A stretch of 54,663 nucleotides of DNA, taken from NCBI GenBank assembly GCA_016235815.1, contig JACRIM010000018.1, forward strand, positions 1 to 54,663, given 5' to 3'. Each line of letters begins with the position of its first letter. Positions within the stretch are counted from its first letter, which is position 1. A model generated the notes under the pieces. It worked only from the letters and a program-made list of their open reading frames with translations. It searched no databases and had not been told where the DNA came from. A program made the translations under genes and the position numbers. Below are positions 30,731-44,517 of the stretch, piece after piece. The DNA comes from Planctomycetota bacterium (lineage in GTDB: Bacteria > Planctomycetota > Phycisphaerae > UBA1845 > UTPLA1).

Positions 30731-33124
30731 TCACGGCGCCAGGTACGCCGCGATGAATGGTCCGACGTCGTCGCCGTCCGGCGTGCCGCTGTTGTTGATG
30801 TCGCTGCGGGTCATGCGGCCGGGGTCGGTGTCGAGGCCGAGGAGGACTTGCACGAAGAGATCGACGTCGAGGTCGTTCTTCGCACAGTTCAGGTCGATGT
30901 CGGCCGCGACGGCGCAGGGCTGCACGGTGAACTGCATCACCGCGTTGCCGCCGGCCACGCCGTCACCCGAAGGCAGCGACGATGGAGAAAGCGGATTGGT
31001 GATTTCGCCGTCGAGTGCGTTGCCGCTGTTCACAGCGGTGACGCCGGTGGTGATGGTAAGCGTGTAATTGTCGGCCGGTAGGGGGCCGGCATGATTCAAC
31101 ACGGCCGGATTGACGTTTGATCCGCTGACGAGCGTGAGAGGATGTACACCGGTATTTGCGCCGACGAGCGAGAAGTTCGCGTCGGCACAATTGACCGGCG
31201 TGTGGAATGTGACCGTCAGTTGGCTCGGGCTTGAGATCGAAGGGATCAGCGCGCCGGGCGTCGGGCTGGCGGCGACAATCTTCGGCGGACCGGGGATGTA
31301 CGCACCGCTCGTTGCGTTGCCTCGCAGGATCCACGGTGCGGGGTCGAAGGCGAGCGCCGTTACAACGCCGCTTACGGGCACGACGAACCACTCGGTGCGA
31401 GCGTCGTTTTGCACGACGAGCGTCTGTGGACTGCCGCCGATGGTGGCAACGAGATCGACCGGCATTTCATAGATGTTTTGCACTTGCGGCGGGGAGCCGG
31501 CTGTCGCAGTTTGAGTCTGGGCAATGCGAGCGAGCAGGTAATTCTGCCCGGCGACGTTGACGGATTGCCAGCCGTATTGGTACGTGGGCGCGCCCTTTTG
31601 CTTCACCCATTGGTCAAAGAACTTCGTCAGGTTCTTGCCGGACACCGTGGATGCCACGGTCGCGAATTGGTCCGTGGTGGCTGCGCTGCCCTGATATTGC
31701 TGGCGATAGGCGTCGAGGATGGCGAAAAAAGTCGCGTCGCTGCCGACGGCGTGCCGGAGCATGTGGAGCACCCAACAGCCTTTGTCATACGAATAGACGC
31801 CGCTAAAAATGCGAGAGGCTGTCGTGGTGTATACATAGACAGAATCGTCGGCGCCGTTGTTGGTGGGGCGATTTGCGTTGAGGGTGGCGAAATAGGCCGT
31901 GGTGTTGATGCTGCCGGTCTTGCGTTCATCCCACAGGCATTGCGTATATGTGGCGAATCCTTCATTGAGCCAGATATCGCTCCATGTTTTGCAGGTGACG
32001 TTGTCACCCCACCATTGATGGCCGAGTTCGTGGGCGGTGACCCCTTCATCGAATGTTCCCTGGCCGGTCATGGTCTGATGTTCCATGCCGCCGCCGAAGT
32101 TGAAGTTGTAGATGCCGTACTTTTCGTTGACGAAGGGGTATTCGCCAAACACCGTGCGAAAGACAGGGAGCATGTTGACGCAATTACCCCAGGCGGCGCG
32201 GTTGACGGGCGTGTCGTTGCCGGGATAGATGTAGAACTGCACCGGCATCGTGCCGGCGGGGTTGAATGGACCAGCGGGGTAGTTGTAGTTGAGCGTCCAC
32301 GTGTTGTAGTTGGTCGCGGCGAAGCAGACGAGGTACGTCGCGATGGGATACGCCGACGACCAGCGGTACCGGCTGCGACCGCCCGAAAGGGCGTCGATGC
32401 CGAGCAAGGTGCCGTTTGATGGAGAAACGTAATTGTTCGGAGCGGTGACCGTCATCTGCAGCGTGAACTTGTCGGACATGTCGCCGGGCTGATCGATGTC
32501 GCCGTCCTTCGCGGGCCACCATGCGTAGGAATAGAACGGTTCGCTGAGCGTGGCGACGACGGGCGAGGCGCCGCTGTGTGTGCCGACGGAGATGGCGCCG
32601 AATGCGCCGGCGTTGAAGGACGTGCCCGTGTAGGAGACATTGAGATCGAAGACCTCGTCCATCGCGAAGGTGCGATTGAGCGTGACGATGCGTGTGCGAT
32701 TCGGCACGAGAGTGTGCGTTACGGGGTGATTGCCGGTGTTGTCGGTGACGCTGAGGCTGGTGATCGTGTAATTGTCGCGCAGTCGGAAGGTGAACTGTGT
32801 CAGGGCGGCGGATTTGCTCTTGATGGTCATGACGCTGCTGCCGAGCATGGTGCAGTTGTTCGCCGCGGGATTGAGATTCGAGACTTCGATGTCGAGGGCG
32901 ACGTTGAGCACATCGGTGTCGCCGAGGGCCTCGCGCGGCATGACGGTCGGCGGTTCCTCGGCGCCGGCCAGCAGGGCCGACATCATGGACTGGGCCTTGC
33001 CGCAGCCGACGATCGGGACCTGACAATCTCCGGGTTCGTGGGCTTGGAGGCTCGATGCACAGAGAAAGAGCATGAACGCCCCGAGGCGCGCTTGTCGACT
33101 ACAACTCATTGGCATACCCGCCAT
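30731..33124 (-). CDS. Secreted M1-family zinc metallopeptidase with dockerin tail, copy 2
   Basis: The 797-residue product has a signal peptide. The M1 core has GGGMEHQTM (the GAMEN-type exopeptidase element, about residue 345), the zinc site HELGHQWWGD (about 365) and the second ligand in WLNEGFAT (about 387). The C-terminus has a dockerin-like pair (DLNCAKNDLDVDLFVQ and DINNSGTPDGDDVGPF). It is an aminopeptidase-like enzyme acting outside the cell. It lies 13 bp behind a second copy at 33138 on the same strand. GTAAGGA precedes the ATG. Confidence 0.92.
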   Translation of the reverse strand: MAGMPMSCSRQARLGAFMLFLCASSLQAHEPGDCQVPIVGCGKAQSMMSALLAGAEEPPTVMPREALGDTDVLNVALDIEVSNLNPAANNCTMLGSSVMTIKSKSAALTQFTFRLRDNYTITSLSVTDNTGNHPVTHTLVPNRTRIVTLNRTFAMDEVFDLNVSYTGTSFNAGAFGAISVGTHSGASPVVATLSEPFYSYAWWPAKDGDIDQPGDMSDKFTLQMTVTAPNNYVSPSNGTLLGIDALSGGRSRYRWSSAYPIATYLVCFAATNYNTWTLNYNYPAGPFNPAGTMPVQFYIYPGNDTPVNRAAWGNCVNMLPVFRTVFGEYPFVNEKYGIYNFNFGGGMEHQTMTGQGTFDEGVTAHELGHQWWGDNVTCKTWSDIWLNEGFATYTQCLWDERKTGSINTTAYFATLNANRPTNNGADDSVYVYTTTASRIFSGVYSYDKGCWVLHMLRHAVGSDATFFAILDAYRQQYQGSAATTDQFATVASTVSGKNLTKFFDQWVKQKGAPTYQYGWQSVNVAGQNYLLARIAQTQTATAGSPPQVQNIYEMPVDLVATIGGSPQTLVVQNDARTEWFVVPVSGVVTALAFDPAPWILRGNATSGAYIPGPPKIVAASPTPGALIPSISSPSQLTVTFHTPVNCADANFSLVGANTGVHPLTLVSGSNVNPAVLNHAGPLPADNYTLTITTGVTAVNSGNALDGEITNPLSPSSLPSGDGVAGGNAVMQFTVQPCAVAADIDLNCAKNDLDVDLFVQVLLGLDTDPGRMTRSDINNSGTPDGDDVGPFIAAYLAP

Positions 33125-33137
33125 GTTAAATCCTTAC

Positions 33138-35498
33138 TTATGTTCCAGTGGTCGCGGCAACGAAGGCCGCGATGTCATCCCCATCCGCCTCGCCATTGTT
33201 ATTCATGTCACTTCGCGTCATGTGATCGGGATCGGAGTCCAGGCCAAGCAGGGTCTGCACGAATAATGCCACGTCGGCGCTGTCGTGGAGGCAGTTCGCA
33301 TCGATGTCGGCCGACGTCTCGCACGGCAGGATGGTAAATCGCACCACCGCATCGCCGCCCGGAAGCCCGTCACCACTTGGCAGAGCCGATGGGTTGTTTG
33401 CGTCGACCAGCTCACCATCGAGGGCAAGTCCGCTGTTCATGGCCGAGACGTTGTCAGCGACGGTGAGTGTGTAGGTGTCCGCAGGCAACGGTCCGGCCGA
33501 CGCGACGACGATCGGATTGTCCCCCAAAACGGAAAGAATCGAAATCGATTGTGGGCCGGTGGTATCACCGACAAGGGTGTAATCGCCGAGTGACGTGTAC
33601 ACCGGTGTGTGATATGTAACCGCGACTTGCGAAACACCGTAAGGGAGCACGGCACCCGGTGACGGACTTGTCGCAACGACTTTGGGCGGACCCGGCACGT
33701 AGGCAACGTTGCTTGTTGTGCCGCGGAGGATCCACGGCGTCGGGTCGAACGAAACGGCCGTCACCGGCGCGGTGGTAGGAACGACGAACCATTCAGATCG
33801 CGCGTCGTTTTGCAAGACAATTGTCTGCGGCACGCCGCCGATGATCGCTACCAAGTCGATCGGCATGACATATTCGTTGAGCGTTTGCGGAGGCGACCCT
33901 GCGGTTGCGGTTTGCGTTTGCGCGATTCGAGCGAGCAGGTAATTCTGTCCGGCGACGTTGGTGGATTGCCAACCCCAGTCATAGGTCGGGGCGCCCTTCT
34001 GATAGACCCATTGATCGAAGAACGCTGCGAGGTCTCTTCCGGAGACAGCTTCGGCGACCGCCCGGAAGTCTTCGGTGTCGGCTGCGCCATACGCGTATTG
34101 AGTGCGATAGGCGGCGAGAATATTGAAAAACGTTGCATCGCCGACAACATGGCGGAGCATGTGCAACACCCATGCGCCCTTGTTATACGAATACGTGGAG
34201 CTGAATATCGAGTTGAGGCTGGTCGCGTTGTACCGAAACGTGGAGCCTGTAGCGCCATTGCTGCTGGGCCTTCGGGCGTTGATCGCGGCGATGTAGGCTG
34301 CCGAGTTGATTCCCCCGGCCTTTCGCTCTTCCCACAAACATTCGCTGTAGGTTGCAAACCCTTCATTGAGCCAGATGTGCCCCCAATTCTTGCAGGTGAT
34401 CATGTCGCCCCACCATTGGTGGGCGAGTTCATGCGCGGTGAGGCTCTCGCTGAAGCTGCCCTGGCCAGTGATGGTTTGGTGCTCCATTCCGCCGCCGTAG
34501 TTGAAGTTGTAGATGCCGTACTTTTCGCTGACGAAGGGATATTCGCCGTAGATGCCGCGATAAGTCGCCATCATGTTCAGGCTTTTCTCCCAATTCGTGC
34601 GATTCGTGGGTGTGTCAAGCCCGGGGTAAATGTAAAACTCGACGGGCATGGTGCCGGCAGGGTTGTAGGGACCGGCGGGGAAGGTGTAGGTGCGCGTCCA
34701 TGTGTTGTAGTTCGTCGCGGCGAAACTCACGAGATAGGGCGTAATGGGGTAGTTCGTTGCCCAGCGATAGCGCTTGCGATTACCGCTGAGGGTATCCACC
34801 CCCTGCAAGGTGCCGTTGGATGGGACGACATAGTTGTTGGGTGTTGTGATCGAGAACTCCATCGTGGCTTTGTCCGAGTTGTCGCCGGGCTGGGCACGAT
34901 CGCCATCCTTGCAAGGCCACCAGGTGTATTCGCCGAAGGGTTCGCTCAGCGTGTAGACAATGGGCGTGCCGCCCTGCGTGGTGACGTCGATGGAGTCGTC
35001 GAGCGATATCGAGGTACCGGTGTAGCCGACGGTGAGGATGAATTCTTCGTCGAGGGCGTAAGGACGATTGAGGCTGACGACACGCGTGGTGTTGCTCGGC
35101 TGAGCGGCGGTGACGGGGATGACGGTCATGCCATCGGTGACGGTGAGGGTCGTCAGCGTGTAATTGCTGTGCAGGCGAAAGGTGAACTCCGACAGGCTTT
35201 CGGATTTGCTGCGAATCGTCATGACGTTCGTGCCGGTGACGGTGCAGTTGTTCGCGCCGGTGTTGAGGTTGGAGATTTCGAGGGTCAGGGCATAGTGCAG
35301 GACGTCGGTCTGGTCGTATGCGTCGCGGGCCGAGCGGCTTGAGGCATCGAGCACGGCGGGCGGCTCATCGGTGAGGGACTGGGCGGACAAGTGTGCGCGA
35401 CCGCAAAGGGTGGTCGGATGGTCTTGTGCAAGCGTCGGTCGCATTGCGGCACAAAGTACGGCAAGGCATCCGAAGGTTGTTCTTGAAAATGCGCGCAA
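33138..35498 (-). CDS. Secreted M1-family zinc metallopeptidase with dockerin tail, copy 1
   Basis: The 786-residue product is collinear with the downstream copy: GGGMEHQTI, HELAHQWWGD and WLNEGFAT, then the same beta domain and a terminal dockerin-like pair (DANCLHDSADVALFVQ, DMNNNGEADGDDIAAF). The start is a TTG with GGGAG seven bases before it. The two copies form a recent-looking tandem duplication and probably one operon, with this copy transcribed first. The substrate is likely extracellular peptide; the dockerin suggests a docking partner not found here. Confidence 0.92.
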   Translation of the reverse strand: MRAFSRTTFGCLAVLCAAMRPTLAQDHPTTLCGRAHLSAQSLTDEPPAVLDASSRSARDAYDQTDVLHYALTLEISNLNTGANNCTVTGTNVMTIRSKSESLSEFTFRLHSNYTLTTLTVTDGMTVIPVTAAQPSNTTRVVSLNRPYALDEEFILTVGYTGTSISLDDSIDVTTQGGTPIVYTLSEPFGEYTWWPCKDGDRAQPGDNSDKATMEFSITTPNNYVVPSNGTLQGVDTLSGNRKRYRWATNYPITPYLVSFAATNYNTWTRTYTFPAGPYNPAGTMPVEFYIYPGLDTPTNRTNWEKSLNMMATYRGIYGEYPFVSEKYGIYNFNYGGGMEHQTITGQGSFSESLTAHELAHQWWGDMITCKNWGHIWLNEGFATYSECLWEERKAGGINSAAYIAAINARRPSSNGATGSTFRYNATSLNSIFSSTYSYNKGAWVLHMLRHVVGDATFFNILAAYRTQYAYGAADTEDFRAVAEAVSGRDLAAFFDQWVYQKGAPTYDWGWQSTNVAGQNYLLARIAQTQTATAGSPPQTLNEYVMPIDLVAIIGGVPQTIVLQNDARSEWFVVPTTAPVTAVSFDPTPWILRGTTSNVAYVPGPPKVVATSPSPGAVLPYGVSQVAVTYHTPVYTSLGDYTLVGDTTGPQSISILSVLGDNPIVVASAGPLPADTYTLTVADNVSAMNSGLALDGELVDANNPSALPSGDGLPGGDAVVRFTILPCETSADIDANCLHDSADVALFVQTLLGLDSDPDHMTRSDMNNNGEADGDDIAAFVAATTGT

Positions 35499-39454: not shown

Positions 39455-40657
39455 CTACTCGCTCTCAATCCCAAGCACCGGGCGTTTTAGCTGTCGATCA
39501 ATAAATGGCACGAAGGAGTTTGCACCGAGGATGGCCCAGTAGCATTCACCTTCGGGCAGGCCGTAGAGGCGCATGAAGATGGTGACTGCGCCGATGAGTG
39601 CGCCGAAAACGATCTGGGCGCGTGCCCGTTTCGGCGAGGTGATCATGTCGCCGGCGAGCAAAAAAGCGCCGAGCATGATCTGGCCGCTGGTGAGGTGATA
39701 GAGAACGTAGGCCAGTCCGACGGCGCGGCCGTTCTCCGCCGCCACGATCGGAAGCCAGCGAAAGCCGCCAGTGTTCGGCGACGCGACCGGCAGAATTGCA
39801 GCGGCCATCGCGGCGCCGGCGAGCAAGGCGACGGGCAATTGCCAGCGAAGATACCCGCGATAGATGAGATACAAACCGGCCACGAGGACGGCGAGCGTTG
39901 ATGCCTCGCCGATTCCGCCGGGGACCGCGCCGACGAGCGTGTCCTGCCACGGTGGAAGATAGTCGCGCAAGAGTGGCGTGAATCGAAGACTGCCCTCGAG
40001 CTTCATTTGGCCGTCGGCAAAACGATGCAGGACGCGTTGGGGGCGCTCCATCGTGAAGGCATCGATGCCGGCCGGACCGCGGGTTTCCGCCCAACCGTCG
40101 TAGGCCGGTATTTCCAGCGGCGTGCTCTTTCGCAGGTCGCCAAATAGTAGGTGATCGCGCGTCAGCACGGGTTCGGGCGCGTAGGACGCGCCGAGCGTCA
40201 AGGTTGAGTTGAAGAGCAATTGAACGAAGACACGGCCGACCAGCGCGGGCTGCCAGATGTAATGCCCTAGTCCGCCGAACGGCGCTTTTCCAAGAAGGAT
40301 TGCGGAGAGCGAGCCGACGGCGGGCACGTACCAATTGACCGTGGCCGGTAGCGTGAGGCCGATCAACATGCCGGTCAGAGCAGCGTGCCACAATCCGCCG
40401 AGCACAGGTCGGCGAATCGACAGGCCGATGAGCAGGTCGGCGGCAATCGCGGTGGCAACGGAGATGACGATGACGGCCGTTGCGGCAGAACCAAAAAAGA
40501 GAATGCCCCAAACGGCGACGAGACCGGCGGCCATGGTCTGAGCGCGGATGATCTCCTGATGTGTGTAGCCCGCGGATCGGCTGACCGGCGCGTGACCAAC
40601 GCCGGAATTTCTGGACGAAGGAGCGTGTGAAAGTGGAAGGAGCGTTGCCTGGCTCAT
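39455..40657 (-). CDS. rnfD: RnfD/NqrB-family membrane subunit without the usual flavin-attachment motif
   Basis: The 400-residue protein has about nine membrane helices and the RnfD C-terminal landmarks GQIMLGAFLLAGDMITSP and YGLPEGECYWAILGANSFVPFIDR. In Rnf/Nqr complexes this subunit carries a covalent FMN on the Thr of an SGAT-type motif. At the expected place I read IDAFTMERP instead. The ATG at 40657 overlaps the rnfC stop by four bases; the much longer upstream frame is a shadow. Rnf normally has six subunits, but only C and D are here. Confidence 0.85.
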   Translation of the reverse strand: MSQATLLPLSHAPSSRNSGVGHAPVSRSAGYTHQEIIRAQTMAAGLVAVWGILFFGSAATAVIVISVATAIAADLLIGLSIRRPVLGGLWHAALTGMLIGLTLPATVNWYVPAVGSLSAILLGKAPFGGLGHYIWQPALVGRVFVQLLFNSTLTLGASYAPEPVLTRDHLLFGDLRKSTPLEIPAYDGWAETRGPAGIDAFTMERPQRVLHRFADGQMKLEGSLRFTPLLRDYLPPWQDTLVGAVPGGIGEASTLAVLVAGLYLIYRGYLRWQLPVALLAGAAMAAAILPVASPNTGGFRWLPIVAAENGRAVGLAYVLYHLTSGQIMLGAFLLAGDMITSPKRARAQIVFGALIGAVTIFMRLYGLPEGECYWAILGANSFVPFIDRQLKRPVLGIESE

Positions 40658-41964
40658 GCCGACGGCCCTCCTTCGAAGCGCTGCCTTGCACGCCAGATGG
40701 ATTGGGCCAGCGGTAATTGCGACGGACAGACGTGGCTGCACAACCCGCAATCGACGCAGGCGCGGAGGTGGTTCAGGTCTTCGCTGCGACAGGTTTCTTC
40801 GGCTTCGAGGTGAATGAGCGCGGTCGGGTCGAGGCCTACCGGGCAGTCTTCGACGCACCAGCCGCAACGAATGCACGGCACCGGAGCATTTTCGGGCGGA
40901 TCGAGAAACAAAAGCATGGCCGTCGAGTCAATCGTGACGACGGCCTCCTCGCGCTGAAGAGCGATGCCGGAGAGCGGCCCGCCCCAGGTGACTTGATGTG
41001 GAGTGCCGAGTATTCCCACGCGCTGGGCCAGATCGGTTGCGGTCATTCCGATTGGAACGCGATAGGTACCCGGGTGTTCGACCGCATCACCGGCCACGCT
41101 CATGATGACGTGGGTTACGGGGCGAGCGTTCAAGATGGCGTCCGCGGTCATGCGCACCACCGAGAGCGGCAGCACGAGAGTCTGCACGTCGAGCGGGCTG
41201 CCGCCGGGAGGGACCTCGCGGTCGAGGAGCGTCTTGGTTAGTACGATGGGATTGCACTGCGGATACTTGTGGGCCAGCGGCATGACCTGGATGAACCGGC
41301 CGCGCGCCTCGGTTTCGATTCGCTTCACCACGCGGCGATGGCGATAGGGCAGTGCGAAAAAGACCTCGAAGACGCCCATGGCGTCGGCGATTTCCCCGAC
41401 GGCGTCGATCAGGCGGCCTGGCTCTTCAACAAGTGTTCGCAAGTCTGCTGTGAGATACGGCTCGGTCTCCACGGCGTTAATGATGAGGTCGGTGACGCCT
41501 GCGGCCGCGGCCCGGGCCAGTAGAACATGAAGGGGTTCCCGCGGGTCCGGGCACATCACGCCCAAGTCCGCTACTTCAAATGAGAAGGAGTCATCCTCCC
41601 AGCGCGACGGCGGTGGGACTGCTTCGTCCCGGGCGTCAGGCTCGAGCACAGCGCAAGGTACGAAACCATCGCGGACCGACCAGGTGCGGGAAAATTCGAC
41701 GATCTCGCCGGACGTCGGCGCGTGGACCGGCAGGGAACCGGAGGTCGTCGGAATGGCGATGCGTTGCCCGGCGAGAACACGGTCTCCGACGCGAACGCAC
41801 GGTTGAGTCGGTAGGTCGCGGCGCGTGACGAGTGGGACTCGGAGGGCCCGCTGTGCCGCAAGCGTCTCAATGGGGCGCTTGGCCGTGGCGGATTTGTAAT
41901 CCGTCAGAAAAAGTCCGCCCTCGAAGGATTGTCGTGGGCCAAGAAGATCGAGGAGGATGGACAA
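40654..41964 (-). CDS. rnfC: RnfC-family iron-sulfur subunit without the FMN/NADH glycine loop
   Basis: The 436-residue protein has an N-terminal RnfC domain (FEGGLFLTDYKSAT, VRVGDRVLAGQRIA, PVHAPTSGEIVEF). The centre has LIINAVETEPYLTAD (about residues 160-174), and two 4Fe-4S sites follow at C364/C367/C370/C374 and C403/C406/C409/C413. In canonical RnfC a GxGGAGFPT loop binding FMN and NADH precedes the EPYLT segment. Here that stretch reads DLGVMCPDPREPLHV and the loop is absent. The pair may be an electron-transfer device that takes electrons from something other than NADH. Confidence 0.88.
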   Translation of the reverse strand: MSILLDLLGPRQSFEGGLFLTDYKSATAKRPIETLAAQRALRVPLVTRRDLPTQPCVRVGDRVLAGQRIAIPTTSGSLPVHAPTSGEIVEFSRTWSVRDGFVPCAVLEPDARDEAVPPPSRWEDDSFSFEVADLGVMCPDPREPLHVLLARAAAAGVTDLIINAVETEPYLTADLRTLVEEPGRLIDAVGEIADAMGVFEVFFALPYRHRRVVKRIETEARGRFIQVMPLAHKYPQCNPIVLTKTLLDREVPPGGSPLDVQTLVLPLSVVRMTADAILNARPVTHVIMSVAGDAVEHPGTYRVPIGMTATDLAQRVGILGTPHQVTWGGPLSGIALQREEAVVTIDSTAMLLFLDPPENAPVPCIRCGWCVEDCPVGLDPTALIHLEAEETCRSEDLNHLRACVDCGLCSHVCPSQLPLAQSIWRARQRFEGGPSA

Positions 41965-42088
41965 GGGTAGTTAGGTCTCCTGTCCGATTCTCAGGGAGCG
42001 GTACCGGACTGGCAAGAATGTCCGACCGAGAATAATACGATCATGTGTTGAGTTCTGCCGGAGCTGGTTCATTTCCTCGCAGATTCGC

Positions 42089-42094
42089 TATAAT
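42089..42094 (+). promoter_or_regulatory. -10 box of hicAB, predicted leaderless start
   Basis: TATAAT ends seven bases before the hicA ATG, and no Shine-Dalgarno site is present. The transcript would begin at or next to the start codon. Confidence 0.6.
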
Positions 42095-42101
42095 TGGCTG
42101 G

Positions 42102-42356
42102 ATGTCGCGGTCAAGGAAGACGCTGGAAAAAGTACTAAGCGGGCACTCGGATGCGAATATCAGCTTTCGTGAACTTCGCGGATTGCTTGTTTCCCTCGGG
42201 TTTGCGGAACGAATAAAAGGCGATCACCACATTTTCTTCCGGGATGGGATCGCTGAGATCATCAACCTTCAGCCGAAGGGGTCTTCGTCGAAGCCGTATC
42301 AAGTTAAACAAGTGCGCGAGTTGATCAACCGATACCAACTACGAGCCAAGCCATGA
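42102..42356 (+). CDS. hicA: HicA-type mRNA interferase toxin
   Basis: The 84-residue protein has the HicA fold signature SFRELRGLLVSLGF and the catalytic His in KGDHHIFFRDG (the usual GSHHIF element with Asp for Ser). HicA cleaves mRNA and is held inactive by HicB. The start at 42102 agrees with the -10 box just upstream; the frame itself opens at 42045. The stop overlaps the hicB start by four bases. Confidence 0.9.
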   Translation: MSRSRKTLEKVLSGHSDANISFRELRGLLVSLGFAERIKGDHHIFFRDGIAEIINLQPKGSSSKPYQVKQVRELINRYQLRAKP

Positions 42357-42559
42357 AGTACGAAGTCATCATTTACTGGTCAAACGAAGATCGAGCCTTT
42401 ATCGCCGAAGTGCCGGAGCTTCCCGGCTGCATGGCCGACGGCAAGACGCACCAAGCCGCCCTCAAGGCTGTATATCGCGTTGCTCGGGAATGGTTGGAAA
42501 CGGCCAAGCAGCTTGATCGACCAATTCCTACCCCCCGCGGTAGGCTGATGTATGCGTAA
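42353..42559 (+). CDS. hicB: HicB-type antitoxin
   Basis: The 68-residue partial-RNase-H-fold antitoxin has the signature YEVIIYWSNEDRAFIAEVPE followed by LPGCMADGKTHQAALKAV. It neutralises HicA. It is the short form, without an appended DNA-binding domain. It overlaps hicA by four bases (ATGA). Confidence 0.92.
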   Translation: MKYEVIIYWSNEDRAFIAEVPELPGCMADGKTHQAALKAVYRVAREWLETAKQLDRPIPTPRGRLMYA

Positions 42560-42568
42560 GTCTGTTCC

Positions 42569-43663
42569 TCAGCGCGGCACGAAGCTAACCGTGATGTGCA
42601 TGATGGTCCAGTAGAGGAAGGCCTCCGGCGCCAGCAACCACTTCAGATAGGGCGTCTGGTCGAGGGCCAATGTCCACACCAGACCGACGGCCATTAACGC
42701 GACAGCCATGCCGATGTGCAATGTCTTGAAGCCGGCGGGGGTCGTGCGCATCCACATCCAAAGTCCATTCGGAGCGGTCTTCGGCGGGTATTTCGAATAC
42801 TGATAGGAAGCGAAGATATACCAGGCAACGACGTGGAAGAGGATGAGCGCGTACGGACGTTGCACGATGAGCAGGGCAAGACCCAGCACGGCAATGACGC
42901 CGCTCATGACGCGGAAGAGCGTCGCATGGGTGTGCACCAATTCGGTGGCGCTGTTGTATCCAAGCCCTTTCGCAAATCGCTTCAGCGCGACGTGAAATCC
43001 CCCCGCGATAATCGCGAGCGGTACCGCCGAGAGCGCGACTTTCGCGGCAAGGGGCAATGAGCCGTTGAACAGGGCGAGGTCGTGCGTGTTCGTCTTGGCA
43101 CTGTAGATGCCCCACGGGACGAGCGCCCAGACGAGGCACGCCATGGCCGCGACCGTGAGCGCGATGAGCGTTCGGACCATCCGTTCGAAGACGGCTCGAT
43201 CCTTGATTGCCGCGGCATCGCCCAACAAGGTATAGAACATGGCCTCATCGCGCAACTCATGGACAAGAAACGCCAGATAGACACCAAGGTAAAGAATGAC
43301 ATTCGTCTTGCCGCCGCCCCATCCATAGAGCGTGCAGAGCACGGCGCCGAGGGCGAGGAGGCCGAAGATCCAGGCCCGCTTTTCAGCCGAGCGATTCTTC
43401 GGACTGGACCACATGAAAAGGAATCCGATGATGACATGCGGAATGGTGATGTAACGCATCGCGGCTTCGGAGGCCTCGCGGATGAAACGAATGCTCTCGG
43501 GGTGACGATGAAGTACGTTTCGCTCGATGTAGTAGCCGATCCAGAATACGAATACGATGAGCGCCGTTCCGAGCATGGCCTTGAGGAAGTGGATTTCCGT
43601 GCGGTTAACGCCGCGCGGCCTTCCGTCGACCGCCAGACTGCCTGAAATCGGTGTGTCCGCCAT
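42569..43663 (-). CDS. His-rich polytopic membrane protein of unknown function
   Basis: The 364-residue protein has about nine or ten membrane helices. Histidines recur at or near helix ends: IPHVIIGF, LVHELRDEAMFY, GGFHVALK, ELVHTHATLF, LFHVVAWYIF, LHIGMAV and MHITVSF. Such a pattern suggests bound metal or haem, as in membrane oxidoreductases or di-iron hydroxylases, but I can name no family. The ATG at 43663 has AGGA at a proper distance. It lies 35 bp after lpxA on the same strand. Confidence 0.7.
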   Translation of the reverse strand: MADTPISGSLAVDGRPRGVNRTEIHFLKAMLGTALIVFVFWIGYYIERNVLHRHPESIRFIREASEAAMRYITIPHVIIGFLFMWSSPKNRSAEKRAWIFGLLALGAVLCTLYGWGGGKTNVILYLGVYLAFLVHELRDEAMFYTLLGDAAAIKDRAVFERMVRTLIALTVAAMACLVWALVPWGIYSAKTNTHDLALFNGSLPLAAKVALSAVPLAIIAGGFHVALKRFAKGLGYNSATELVHTHATLFRVMSGVIAVLGLALLIVQRPYALILFHVVAWYIFASYQYSKYPPKTAPNGLWMWMRTTPAGFKTLHIGMAVALMAVGLVWTLALDQTPYLKWLLAPEAFLYWTIMHITVSFVPR

Positions 43664-43698
43664 GACTTTTCCTATCTCGCGAGGCGATGATACTCCGT

Positions 43699-44517
43699 TC
43701 AATCCTCGTCGCCGCCATTTTCATCTACATCGGCTGCTGACCGTCTTCCGCCCGCGATGCCTAGTTTCGATGCGCCATTGACGAATTCGAGGACGCGCTT
43801 TCCGGTCGCCGTTTTGGCCTGTCCGGCAAATTCTTCCACGGCCGATCGGAACGGTTTGTCGGTGTGATACAGGATCCGGTAGGCGAGGCGAGCCTCATCG
43901 ATCTCCTCCTTGGAAAACTTCCCGGCGCGTCGAAGCCCGATGCTGTTGTAACCCACGCACTTCGATTCGTGCAACGCCTTCATGAACGGTGGGATGTCTT
44001 TCGTAATCCGGGTGCCGCCACCGATCATGACGTACTCGCCGATTCGGGCGAATTGGTGAACAAGACCGTAGCCGCCGACAATGGAGTTTTCCCCGACGGT
44101 GACGTGACCAGCCAAGGCGCCGCAGTTGTAAAGCTTGACCCCGTTGCCGAGCTCACAGTTGTGGCCGATGTGAGCGTAGCCAAGGATGAAGCAGTTCTTA
44201 CCGAGGATCGTCCAGGATTCGGGCTGCGTTCCCCGATGGATGCTGGCGAACTCTCGAATGATGGTCCCCGCGCCAATCTTGCAATACGACCGTTCGCCGC
44301 CGAAGTGGAAATCCTGCGGCAGGTGGCCGACGACCGCGCCGGGATGAATCTGCACGCGGTCGCCGATTTCGGTCCAGCCGGAAAGATAGGCGTTCGGGTA
44401 AATCTTGACGTTCTCGCCAAGCTTGACCGGTCCCTCGATGACGACGTTCGGTCCGATGTCGCATGAGGGGGGTACGTGTGCCTGTTTATCGATAATGGCG
44501 GTCGGATGAATGGGCAT
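43699..44517 (-). CDS. lpxA: UDP-N-acetylglucosamine acyltransferase LpxA
   Basis: LpxA moves a hydroxyacyl chain from acyl carrier protein to UDP-GlcNAc, the first step of lipid A synthesis. The 272-residue protein shows the left-handed beta-helix hexapeptide pattern (IGPNVVIEGPVKLGENVKIY onwards). It has the catalytic His in YAHIGHNC (H119; the second position here is Asn where E. coli has Asp) and the typical C-terminal helical domain. It supports an outer membrane with lipid A. FabI, which feeds acyl-ACP, is encoded next door on the other strand. Confidence 0.96.
   Translation of the reverse strand: MPIHPTAIIDKQAHVPPSCDIGPNVVIEGPVKLGENVKIYPNAYLSGWTEIGDRVQIHPGAVVGHLPQDFHFGGERSYCKIGAGTIIREFASIHRGTQPESWTILGKNCFILGYAHIGHNCELGNGVKLYNCGALAGHVTVGENSIVGGYGLVHQFARIGEYVMIGGGTRITKDIPPFMKALHESKCVGYNSIGLRRAGKFSKEEIDEARLAYRILYHTDKPFRSAVEEFAGQAKTATGKRVLEFVNGASKLGIAGGRRSAADVDENGGDED

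Follow-up and report, generated by a model that had tools for sequence, protein, structure and literature searches.

A 54,663-nt stretch of DNA from a Planctomycetota bacterium (assembly GCA_016235815.1, contig JACRIM010000018.1, positions 1-54,663), called the window below, carries two adjacent genes for homologues of the RnfC and RnfD subunits of RNF. RNF is a six-part membrane electron pump (RnfABCDGE). Like NQR, it is described as rich in flavins, which sit in RnfC, RnfD and RnfG. In the window pair two predicted flavin sites are lost and a third, the riboflavin site, is altered. We refer to genes and proteins of this kind as "star" and to ordinary RNF ones as "canonical". Judged from its sequence, the star pair is neither RNF, nor NQR, nor a known two-subunit NQR/RNF-like complex. 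We tentatively propose that its products form an independent electron-transfer unit of two subunits, which descends from the RnfC-RnfD half of RNF and acts as a ferredoxin:quinone oxidoreductase, a reading that we hold, quinone step included, to be possible but short of probable.

The window RnfC matches the RnfC_N and Complex1_51K domains and scores 246.2 bits against TIGR01945, for which the cut-off is 245.95 (a margin of 0.25 bits). Both CxxCxxCxxxCP motifs are present. At the position of the loop for flavin mononucleotide (FMN) and reduced nicotinamide adenine dinucleotide (NADH), the window sequence reads CPDPREPLHVLL, the canonical counterpart being GLGGATFPTHVKL; most planctomycete RnfC sequences aligned exhibit G(L/M)GGATFPTHVKL at this loop. 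The flanks remain alignable between the window and canonical RnfC (NAVETEPYLTADLR aligned to NGAECEPYLTCDYR). Since the flanking sequence aligns well, the loop has been replaced and the motif has not been shifted. The alignments of RnfC and RnfD revealed no shifted glycine-loop or flavin motif.

The window RnfD matches PF03116 (216 bits) as its sole domain, with no PF00175 fusion; its TIGR01946 score (158.5) is below the cut-off of 207.05. The alignment places DAFTMERPQ of the window against DAVTxATPL of canonical rows. The column of the FMN-bearing threonine, which falls within a loosely aligned loop, is occupied by Arg205. In Acetobacterium woodii RnfD, riboflavin is held by N123 and D249, and the mutants N123A and D249A exhibit no growth and an enzyme without ferredoxin:NAD activity (PMC11889175). 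Direct and family alignments place Gln136 of the window at the position of N123, and Asp337 at that of D249. The original prediction had described an RnfC with both 4Fe-4S sites but without the FMN/NADH loop, and an RnfD with IDAFTMERP instead of its flavin motif. Profile matches and alignment confirm the former, and comparison with canonical rows bears out the latter. The profile alignment that it had called for, with displaced motifs in mind, gave aligned flanks around a replaced loop.

A structural model of the window RnfD, built from 33 rows (27 star, 6 canonical), reached a predicted local distance difference test score (pLDDT) of 89.4 and a predicted template-modelling score of 0.88. In a fold search (Foldseek was also run), the model matches RnfD/NqrB chains at Z 29.8-36.8; ammonium/Rh and urea channels come next, with much lower Z values of about 11-13.5. 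The FMN-bearing region of RNF corresponds to an ordered part of the model, with short strands at residues 162-165, 178-180 and 200-203. The N-terminal arm of RnfD is buried in RnfC in RNF (PMC9588780), and its PH residues are kept in 12 of the 14 family rows aligned.

The two genes look like a working unit. The rnfD open reading frame (ORF) at 39455..40876 is over-extended; its real start is the ATG at 40657, overlapping the rnfC stop as ATGA. A 4-nt overlap of this kind (ATGA, GTGA or TTGA) was found in 14 of 16 pairs checked. In the relative G480, both proteins are encoded in one 878-aa frame, with Fer4 at 397-447 and NQR2_RnfD at 514-868. Ratios of non-synonymous to synonymous substitution rates (dN/dS) over five family pairs range from 0.040 to 0.246 for star rnfC and from 0.025 to 0.194 for star rnfD; the synonymous distance exceeds 1 in several of these pairs, and only the closest pairs are reliable.

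With the window RnfC as query, 231 of 397 genomes of the class gave a match. At least 16 of the matched genomes belong to the window's family, the source genome included: 14 relatives at 42-62% identity and the far more divergent G480. Among the 20 listed of the 166 unmatched genomes, starting with the window's order, no family genome seems to have been missed. At 29 other loci from this search, the loop is absent in 27 and present in two (L081, L083). Star relatives were found in the groups f94, f104, f100, f102, f5 and f4 of the class, and also in records titled Phycisphaerae, Planctomycetales and Planctomycetota. The star pair is seen as well in two records titled Actinomycetota (L146, L170). 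These titles are probably wrong, since L146 is identical in the loop region to L079, which comes from G305, a genome placed in the window's class.

We compared 86 hand-chosen RnfC rows (49 star, 37 canonical), with 45 star rows for the RnfD columns; the RnfC loop and the motifs of RnfD guided the manual labelling, which was not blinded to the riboflavin Asn. The glycine loop is found in 0 of 49 star rows and in 35 of 37 canonical rows, and the two 4Fe-4S motifs in 49 of 49 and 36 of 37, respectively. A CxxC(G/A)WC signature characterizes 47 of the 49 star rows and 7 of the 37 canonical ones. In RnfD, the riboflavin Asn is present in all 37 canonical rows and in none of the 45 star rows (20 Gln, 23 His, 1 Met, 1 Val). 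The riboflavin Asp is likewise present in 37 of 37 canonical rows; the star rows exhibit 25 Asp, 11 Glu and 9 other residues or gaps. The FMN-Thr column holds 31 Thr and 6 Ser in the canonical rows and 1 Thr, 3 Ser and 41 other residues in the star rows.

The two canonical exceptions at the glycine loop (L200, L152) were labelled by their RnfD motifs and, for L200, by the RnfA/E beside it. L200 is a Galloscillospira RNF locus with RnfA/E, normal RnfD motifs and an RnfC without the glycine loop. L152 exhibits GGKGGFP in RnfC, and NPA and the Asp in RnfD but no FMN Thr motif, another kind of partial loss. Alignment columns are quoted here because pattern searches erred: they missed the loops of L192 and L203 and matched an N-terminal stretch of L154, and with a loose T-x-A/P-T/S pattern there were 10 hits among star rows while three canonical rows escaped. 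Left out of the counts were L127 and L128 (RnfC-like, intact loop), L130 (another iron-sulfur protein), L131-L138, L141, L142 and L148 (apparently the same records as loci with G handles), the near-copies L092 and L095, the star loci L167, L181, L206, L216-L218, L220, L222-L225 and L228, and the canonical L036, L040 and many further loci.

In an RnfC tree with the loop columns dropped, the star and canonical labels are separated by one change on one branch, with a Shimodaira-Hasegawa-like approximate likelihood ratio test support of 98. Shuffling the labels gave a mean of 28.1 changes, and 0 of 500 shuffles were as low as observed. This is a quick, midpoint-rooted tree of hand-chosen rows without bootstraps; it is a more independent test of the star group than the motif counts. 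The predicted flavin-site losses are a property of a group, not an oddity of one genome.

The source genome (95.5% complete, 60 contigs) exhibits one RnfC_N match, one strong NQR2_RnfD_RnfE match and one weak RnfD-like protein; profile searches detected in it no RnfA/E, ApbE or FMN_bind, nor any RnfB over the cut-off. All absences given here refer to profile searches, because the RnfA/E of some planctomycetes escape a tblastn scan with two RNF operons. In the window's family, RnfA/E or NqrD/E (PF02508) was found in 0 of 17 genomes (against 4 of 14 named control genomes), ApbE (PF02424) in 0 of 17, RnfB (TIGR01944) over cut-off in 0 of 17, and FMN_bind (PF04205; RnfG/NqrC) in 0 of the 12 searched. 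Three family genomes (G295, G323, G565) are single contigs. Sub-threshold ferredoxin-like 4Fe-4S matches to the RnfB profile occur in 17 of 17. The weak RnfD-like protein of the source genome (L002:781-2805, contig 41; 674 aa) has a C-terminal half resembling Sel1-type repeats. By eye, its riboflavin ligands look kept (NPSAFG and DPATSP) and it has no SGAT motif.

Among the 27 star genomes outside the family, of which G532 was confirmed as star, PF02508 is absent in 23 and present in G624, G639, G300 and G308. ApbE was found there in 0 of 7 genomes of f100, 3 of 7 of f102, 0 of 5 of f5, 1 of 1 of f4, 5 of 5 of f94 and 2 of 2 of f104, and FMN_bind in 0 of 3 of f100, 1 of 5 of f102, 0 of 5 of f5, and in G198, G639 and G300 (1 of 1 each). 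The FMN_bind, RnfA/E and ApbE matches of G300 lie together on contig C10, and its star pair on C35. The partners are strictly absent in the window's family and, within the genomes searched, in f100 and f5, but not in all star genomes.

The statement in the original prediction that no other rnf gene lies near the pair holds for the whole source genome, where the profiles found none beyond the weak RnfD-like protein (for RnfB, none over cut-off). The prediction had also allowed that the remaining rnf genes might lie elsewhere. Such an arrangement is real in the phylum, as the canonical genomes described below exhibit it, but it does not apply to the window's family. That the pair belongs to a dispersed RNF was considered and rejected for this family, because RnfA/E (0 of 17), ApbE (0 of 17), RnfB over cut-off (0 of 17) and FMN_bind (0 of 12) were not found there. 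Of the separate complex then envisaged, the separateness stands, as the losses co-occur in relatives and the pair is a separate unit in the family; its coupling to ions, taken up below, is not supported.

The pair shares with the RNF of A. woodii, Clostridium tetanomorphum and Azotobacter vinelandii the RnfC and RnfD homology, the two 4Fe-4S motifs, the RnfD fold and, in most family rows, the N-terminal arm. It differs from RNF in that the family has no detected RnfA/E, RnfB over cut-off, RnfG-type FMN_bind or ApbE, in lacking the FMN loop and the FMN-Thr, and in the replaced riboflavin Asn. With NQR (NqrA-NqrB) it shares an RnfC-like subunit lacking NADH/FMN sites and held by an RnfD-like subunit. 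However, NqrA has lost its iron-sulfur clusters, whereas covalent FMN and riboflavin are retained in NqrB (PMC12174285), the reverse of the star pair; moreover, the profiles for NqrD/E (PF02508) and NqrC (PF04205) gave no match in the 17 and 12 family genomes searched, respectively. Two-subunit NQR/RNF-like complexes are also two-gene units with an NqrB/RnfD-like subunit lacking the flavinylated Thr (PMC8238504; PMC10979944). In them the partner subunit is NqrC/RnfG-like and has a flavinylation site of its own, and a PF00175 NAD-binding domain is present; the sections of these two papers available to us describe no RnfC for them. In contrast, the window RnfD has no PF00175, and no FMN_bind partner was found in the family genomes searched. 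An RnfC-RnfD-only or flavin-free pair is not named in titles or abstracts among the matches listed from the open-licence literature, which is no proof of absence in print. A nitrogenase-associated rnf reported in a Phycisphaerae population (PMC4897734) counters any claim of an RNF-less class.

Canonical planctomycete rnfC-rnfD(-rnfG)-scpB loci differ from the star loci in keeping the glycine loop, the FMN Thr/Ser and the riboflavin Asn, but have the same neighbours. An scpB, aminotransferase or peptidyl-prolyl isomerase (PPIase) gene occurs at the same place beside rnfC-rnfD in 8 of 17 canonical planctomycete loci (neighbour genes were named by Pfam on representatives). Two of them, L034 and L051, exhibit all three, with PPIase and aminotransferase upstream and scpB downstream. 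The star pair of L102 is located between the same PPIase-aminotransferase pair and scpB; those of L146 and L170, in part alike, are between aminotransferase and scpB, and those of L144, L168 and L175 follow the PPIase-aminotransferase pair. Twelve canonical planctomycete genomes were searched for RnfA/E, and 11 have them on another contig or far from rnfC-rnfD; in eight of these 11 (G093, G169, G124, G098, G010, G041, G160, G248) a single RnfD locus was found. In G248, which is one contig, rnfC-rnfD and RnfA/E are about 530 kb apart; most other canonical genomes are drafts. Because star and canonical loci share the PPIase, aminotransferase and scpB neighbours, the comparison suggests that the star pair originated in place from a split RNF and then lost its flavin sites. 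It also suggests that, in several families, the other RNF subunits were lost as well after the split. A split-looking canonical RNF, with rnfCD(G) and RnfA/E apart, was noted at L034, L035/L037, L036, L039, L041, L051 and L053. In G206 (L049; genome 94% complete), rnfC-rnfD-rnfG carry flavin motifs, and RnfA/E and ApbE were not found.

The electron path of RNF runs through FMN of RnfG, FMN and riboflavin of RnfD, [4Fe-4S]-2 and [4Fe-4S]-1 of RnfC, FMN of RnfC and NAD, with 11.7 A from riboflavin to [4Fe-4S]-2 (PMC9588780). In NQR, riboflavin passes electrons to quinone in NqrB (PMC12174285), which by analogy shows that an RnfD relative is able to serve quinone. If the FMN pair and RnfG were removed, a wire would remain that links the cytoplasmic NAD/FMN cleft with the membrane-embedded riboflavin pocket. 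Most simply, it would serve to carry electrons between soluble ferredoxin and an acceptor in the membrane. In the proposed mechanism, star RnfD would anchor star RnfC via its N-terminal arm, as in RNF. A small ferredoxin (a cytoplasmic one-electron carrier) would exchange electrons with the cluster of RnfC that adjoins the former FMN cleft; from there the electron would move to the membrane-facing cluster and on to an acceptor, most likely a quinone, in the old riboflavin pocket of RnfD. Overall the pair would be a small ferredoxin:quinone oxidoreductase without NAD(H), covalent flavin or the RnfA/E pumping step. In favour of this reading are the joint loss of flavin features on one branch, the retained cluster motifs, the RNF partners not found in the family, the low dN/dS, the G480 fusion and the ferredoxin-like matches in all 17 family genomes. 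Since RnfA/E are absent, we expect no ion pumping by the pair, and the coupling to ion transport suggested for it in the original prediction is not supported. The RnfA/E pair of A. woodii is reported to carry Na+, with no ion path found in RnfD (PMC11889175), whereas in another study RnfD is named as the subunit that translocates Na+ (PMC9588780).

Several observations weigh against this proposal. Four loci among the tree rows (L213, L214 and L215 of f102, L230 of f5) exhibit no adjacent star rnfD detected in 4.7-8.9 kb downstream, and the same holds for L181, outside the tree, over 5.0 kb; at L167, L206 and L126 the downstream sequence is too short to decide adjacency. The arm of the window RnfD reads APVSR, without PH, and residues 1-27 of the model have a pLDDT below 50. 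The quinone site of NqrB uses two extra N-terminal helices missing in RnfD (PMC12174285). At the riboflavin Asp position, 36 of the 45 star RnfD still have an acidic residue (Asp or Glu), and riboflavin may still be bound beside the Gln or His. Neighbouring genes vary between families, and none at the loci surveyed indicates ferredoxin or quinone enzymes. The motif counts are partly circular, the star label being drawn from the same motifs. The lack of an adjacent rnfD at L181 and of PH in the window arm lowered our already limited confidence slightly.

An alternative that we regard as unlikely, although it is the best of those considered, is that only the two FMN were lost and that riboflavin, still bound in star RnfD, passes the electrons of RnfC to a periplasmic acceptor. 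It agrees with the retention of D (25) or E (11) at the Asp position among the 45 star RnfD, with the ordered, partly strand-forming former FMN region of the model and with the truncated-haemoglobin-like protein encoded directly upstream in 5 of 7 f100 loci. However, none of the 45 star rows has the Asn, and 9 of them lack the Asp/Glu too. The loss of growth and activity in A. woodii N123A (PMC11889175), and the lack of ApbE and FMN_bind matches in the window's family, also argue against it.

The fold search raises another alternative, in which star RnfD is a channel or transporter of the ammonium/urea fold, gated by star RnfC as a redox sensor. Ammonium, Rh and urea channels are the next fold neighbours after RnfD/NqrB, and in 23 of the 45 star rows a His takes the place of the riboflavin Asn. 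Ordinary RnfD is nevertheless known to share this fold kinship (PMC9588780), Z values under about 13 may reflect only a common helical arrangement, and no transport gene context appeared among the neighbours tested; we consider this function improbable. Marginally less probable still is a scaffold or remnant without redox function, for assembly or anchoring, as cofactor-free NqrA may be. NqrA, which is related to RnfC, has no cofactors (PMC12174285, PMC4014512), and several f100 frames are short (367-403 aa), with the N-terminal barrel apparently gone. Against this, the eight cluster cysteines are kept in 49 of 49 star rows, whereas NqrA lost its clusters, and the dN/dS values are low.

A supply of reductant to one enzyme, such as the radical S-adenosylmethionine (radical-SAM) enzyme QueE, with star RnfD merely as an anchor, would fit the six star loci with QueE-like and QueD-like genes downstream but is very unlikely, as no QueE/QueD match lies within 9 kb in loci of the window's family, f100, f102 and f5. 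Finally, membership in an ordinary RNF, with the other subunits elsewhere or missing from the assembly, would recall the canonical relatives with distant RnfA/E and the 4 of 27 outside star genomes that carry RnfA/E, but is scarcely credible given 0 of 17 family genomes with RnfA/E or ApbE, three of them single-contig, and the separate contigs of G300.

The features of the locus are listed in Table 1. Of 15 family loci, 11 have an lpxA gene upstream in the same orientation. A homologue of the 377-aa membrane protein is encoded beside star rnfC in 6 of 15 family loci, window included. The original prediction considered this His-rich protein, encoded about 600 bp from rnfC, as a partner; its occurrence in 6 of 15 loci indicates that it is not obligate. 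The window copy has no Pfam match, and its AlphaFold model (pLDDT 56.5) is too poor for use. Invariant His, Glu and Asp residues are seen in its six aligned rows. Between this gene and star rnfC, the plus strand (42045..42560) exhibits a HicA-like ORF (PF07927, 22 bits, below the cut-off of 27) and a HicB-like ORF assigned by eye. The centre-to-centre distance from star rnfC to the membrane protein gene is 1826 in the window versus 1252-1430 in five relatives, as if these ORFs had been inserted. Farther away (30731..35498), the window contains a tandem pair of large ORFs in which peptidase-like motifs (HELGHQWWGD and HELAHQWWGD) and dockerin-like ends were recognized by eye.

Table 1. Features of the star rnfC-rnfD locus and its neighbours in the window
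Feature	Coordinates	Strand	Size or start	Description
star rnfC	40654..41964	minus	436 aa, TTG start	RnfC homologue, two 4Fe-4S motifs, no FMN/NADH glycine loop
star rnfD	39455..40657	minus	400 aa	RnfD/NqrB-fold membrane protein without flavinylated Thr
First 4Fe-4S motif of star RnfC	40840..40875	minus	residues 364-375	CIRCGWCVEDCP; by alignment
Second 4Fe-4S motif of star RnfC	40723..40758	minus	residues 403-414	CVDCGLCSHVCP; by alignment
Site of canonical GxGGAxFPTHVKL in star RnfC	41506..41553	minus	residues 138-153	CPDPREPLHVLLARAA; by alignment
rnfC stop/rnfD start overlap	40654..40657	minus	4 nt	ATGA
Place of DxxTxATP in star RnfD	40037..40066	minus	residues 198-207	IDAFTMERPQ; by alignment
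Riboflavin-ligand Asn position in star RnfD	40238..40264	minus	residues 132-140	HYIWQPALV, Gln136 at the Asn position; by alignment
Membrane protein gene	42569..43702	minus	377 aa	family unassigned, optional neighbour
lpxA	43699..44517	minus		shared context, no shown role

Other neighbours are confined to particular groups. In 5 of 7 f100 loci (L216, L217, L221, L222, L225), the gene directly upstream of star rnfC encodes the truncated-haemoglobin-like protein, with PF01152 in the two tested and a lipobox read by eye. The QueE-like (radical-SAM) and QueD-like genes lie downstream of the star pair at L144, L145, L154, L175, L201 and L202; one of each was checked with Pfam.

More broadly, a branch of RNF/NQR may have shed every flavin and other subunit to become a membrane unit of two proteins, ferredoxin:quinone-linked or redox-gated, with iron-sulfur clusters only, replacing RNF or standing beside it in several apparent Phycisphaerae families, though in this full form we think it rather doubtful. 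For annotation the pair is a trap: the window RnfC passes TIGR01945 by so small a margin that automatic naming might assign to the organism an NADH-linked RNF which it apparently lacks. The pair also bears on whether RnfD moves ions, a point on which PMC9588780 and PMC11889175 disagree. A conserved pair poor in flavin sites separates roles that are merged in the full pump, and bears on what RnfC and RnfD do alone.

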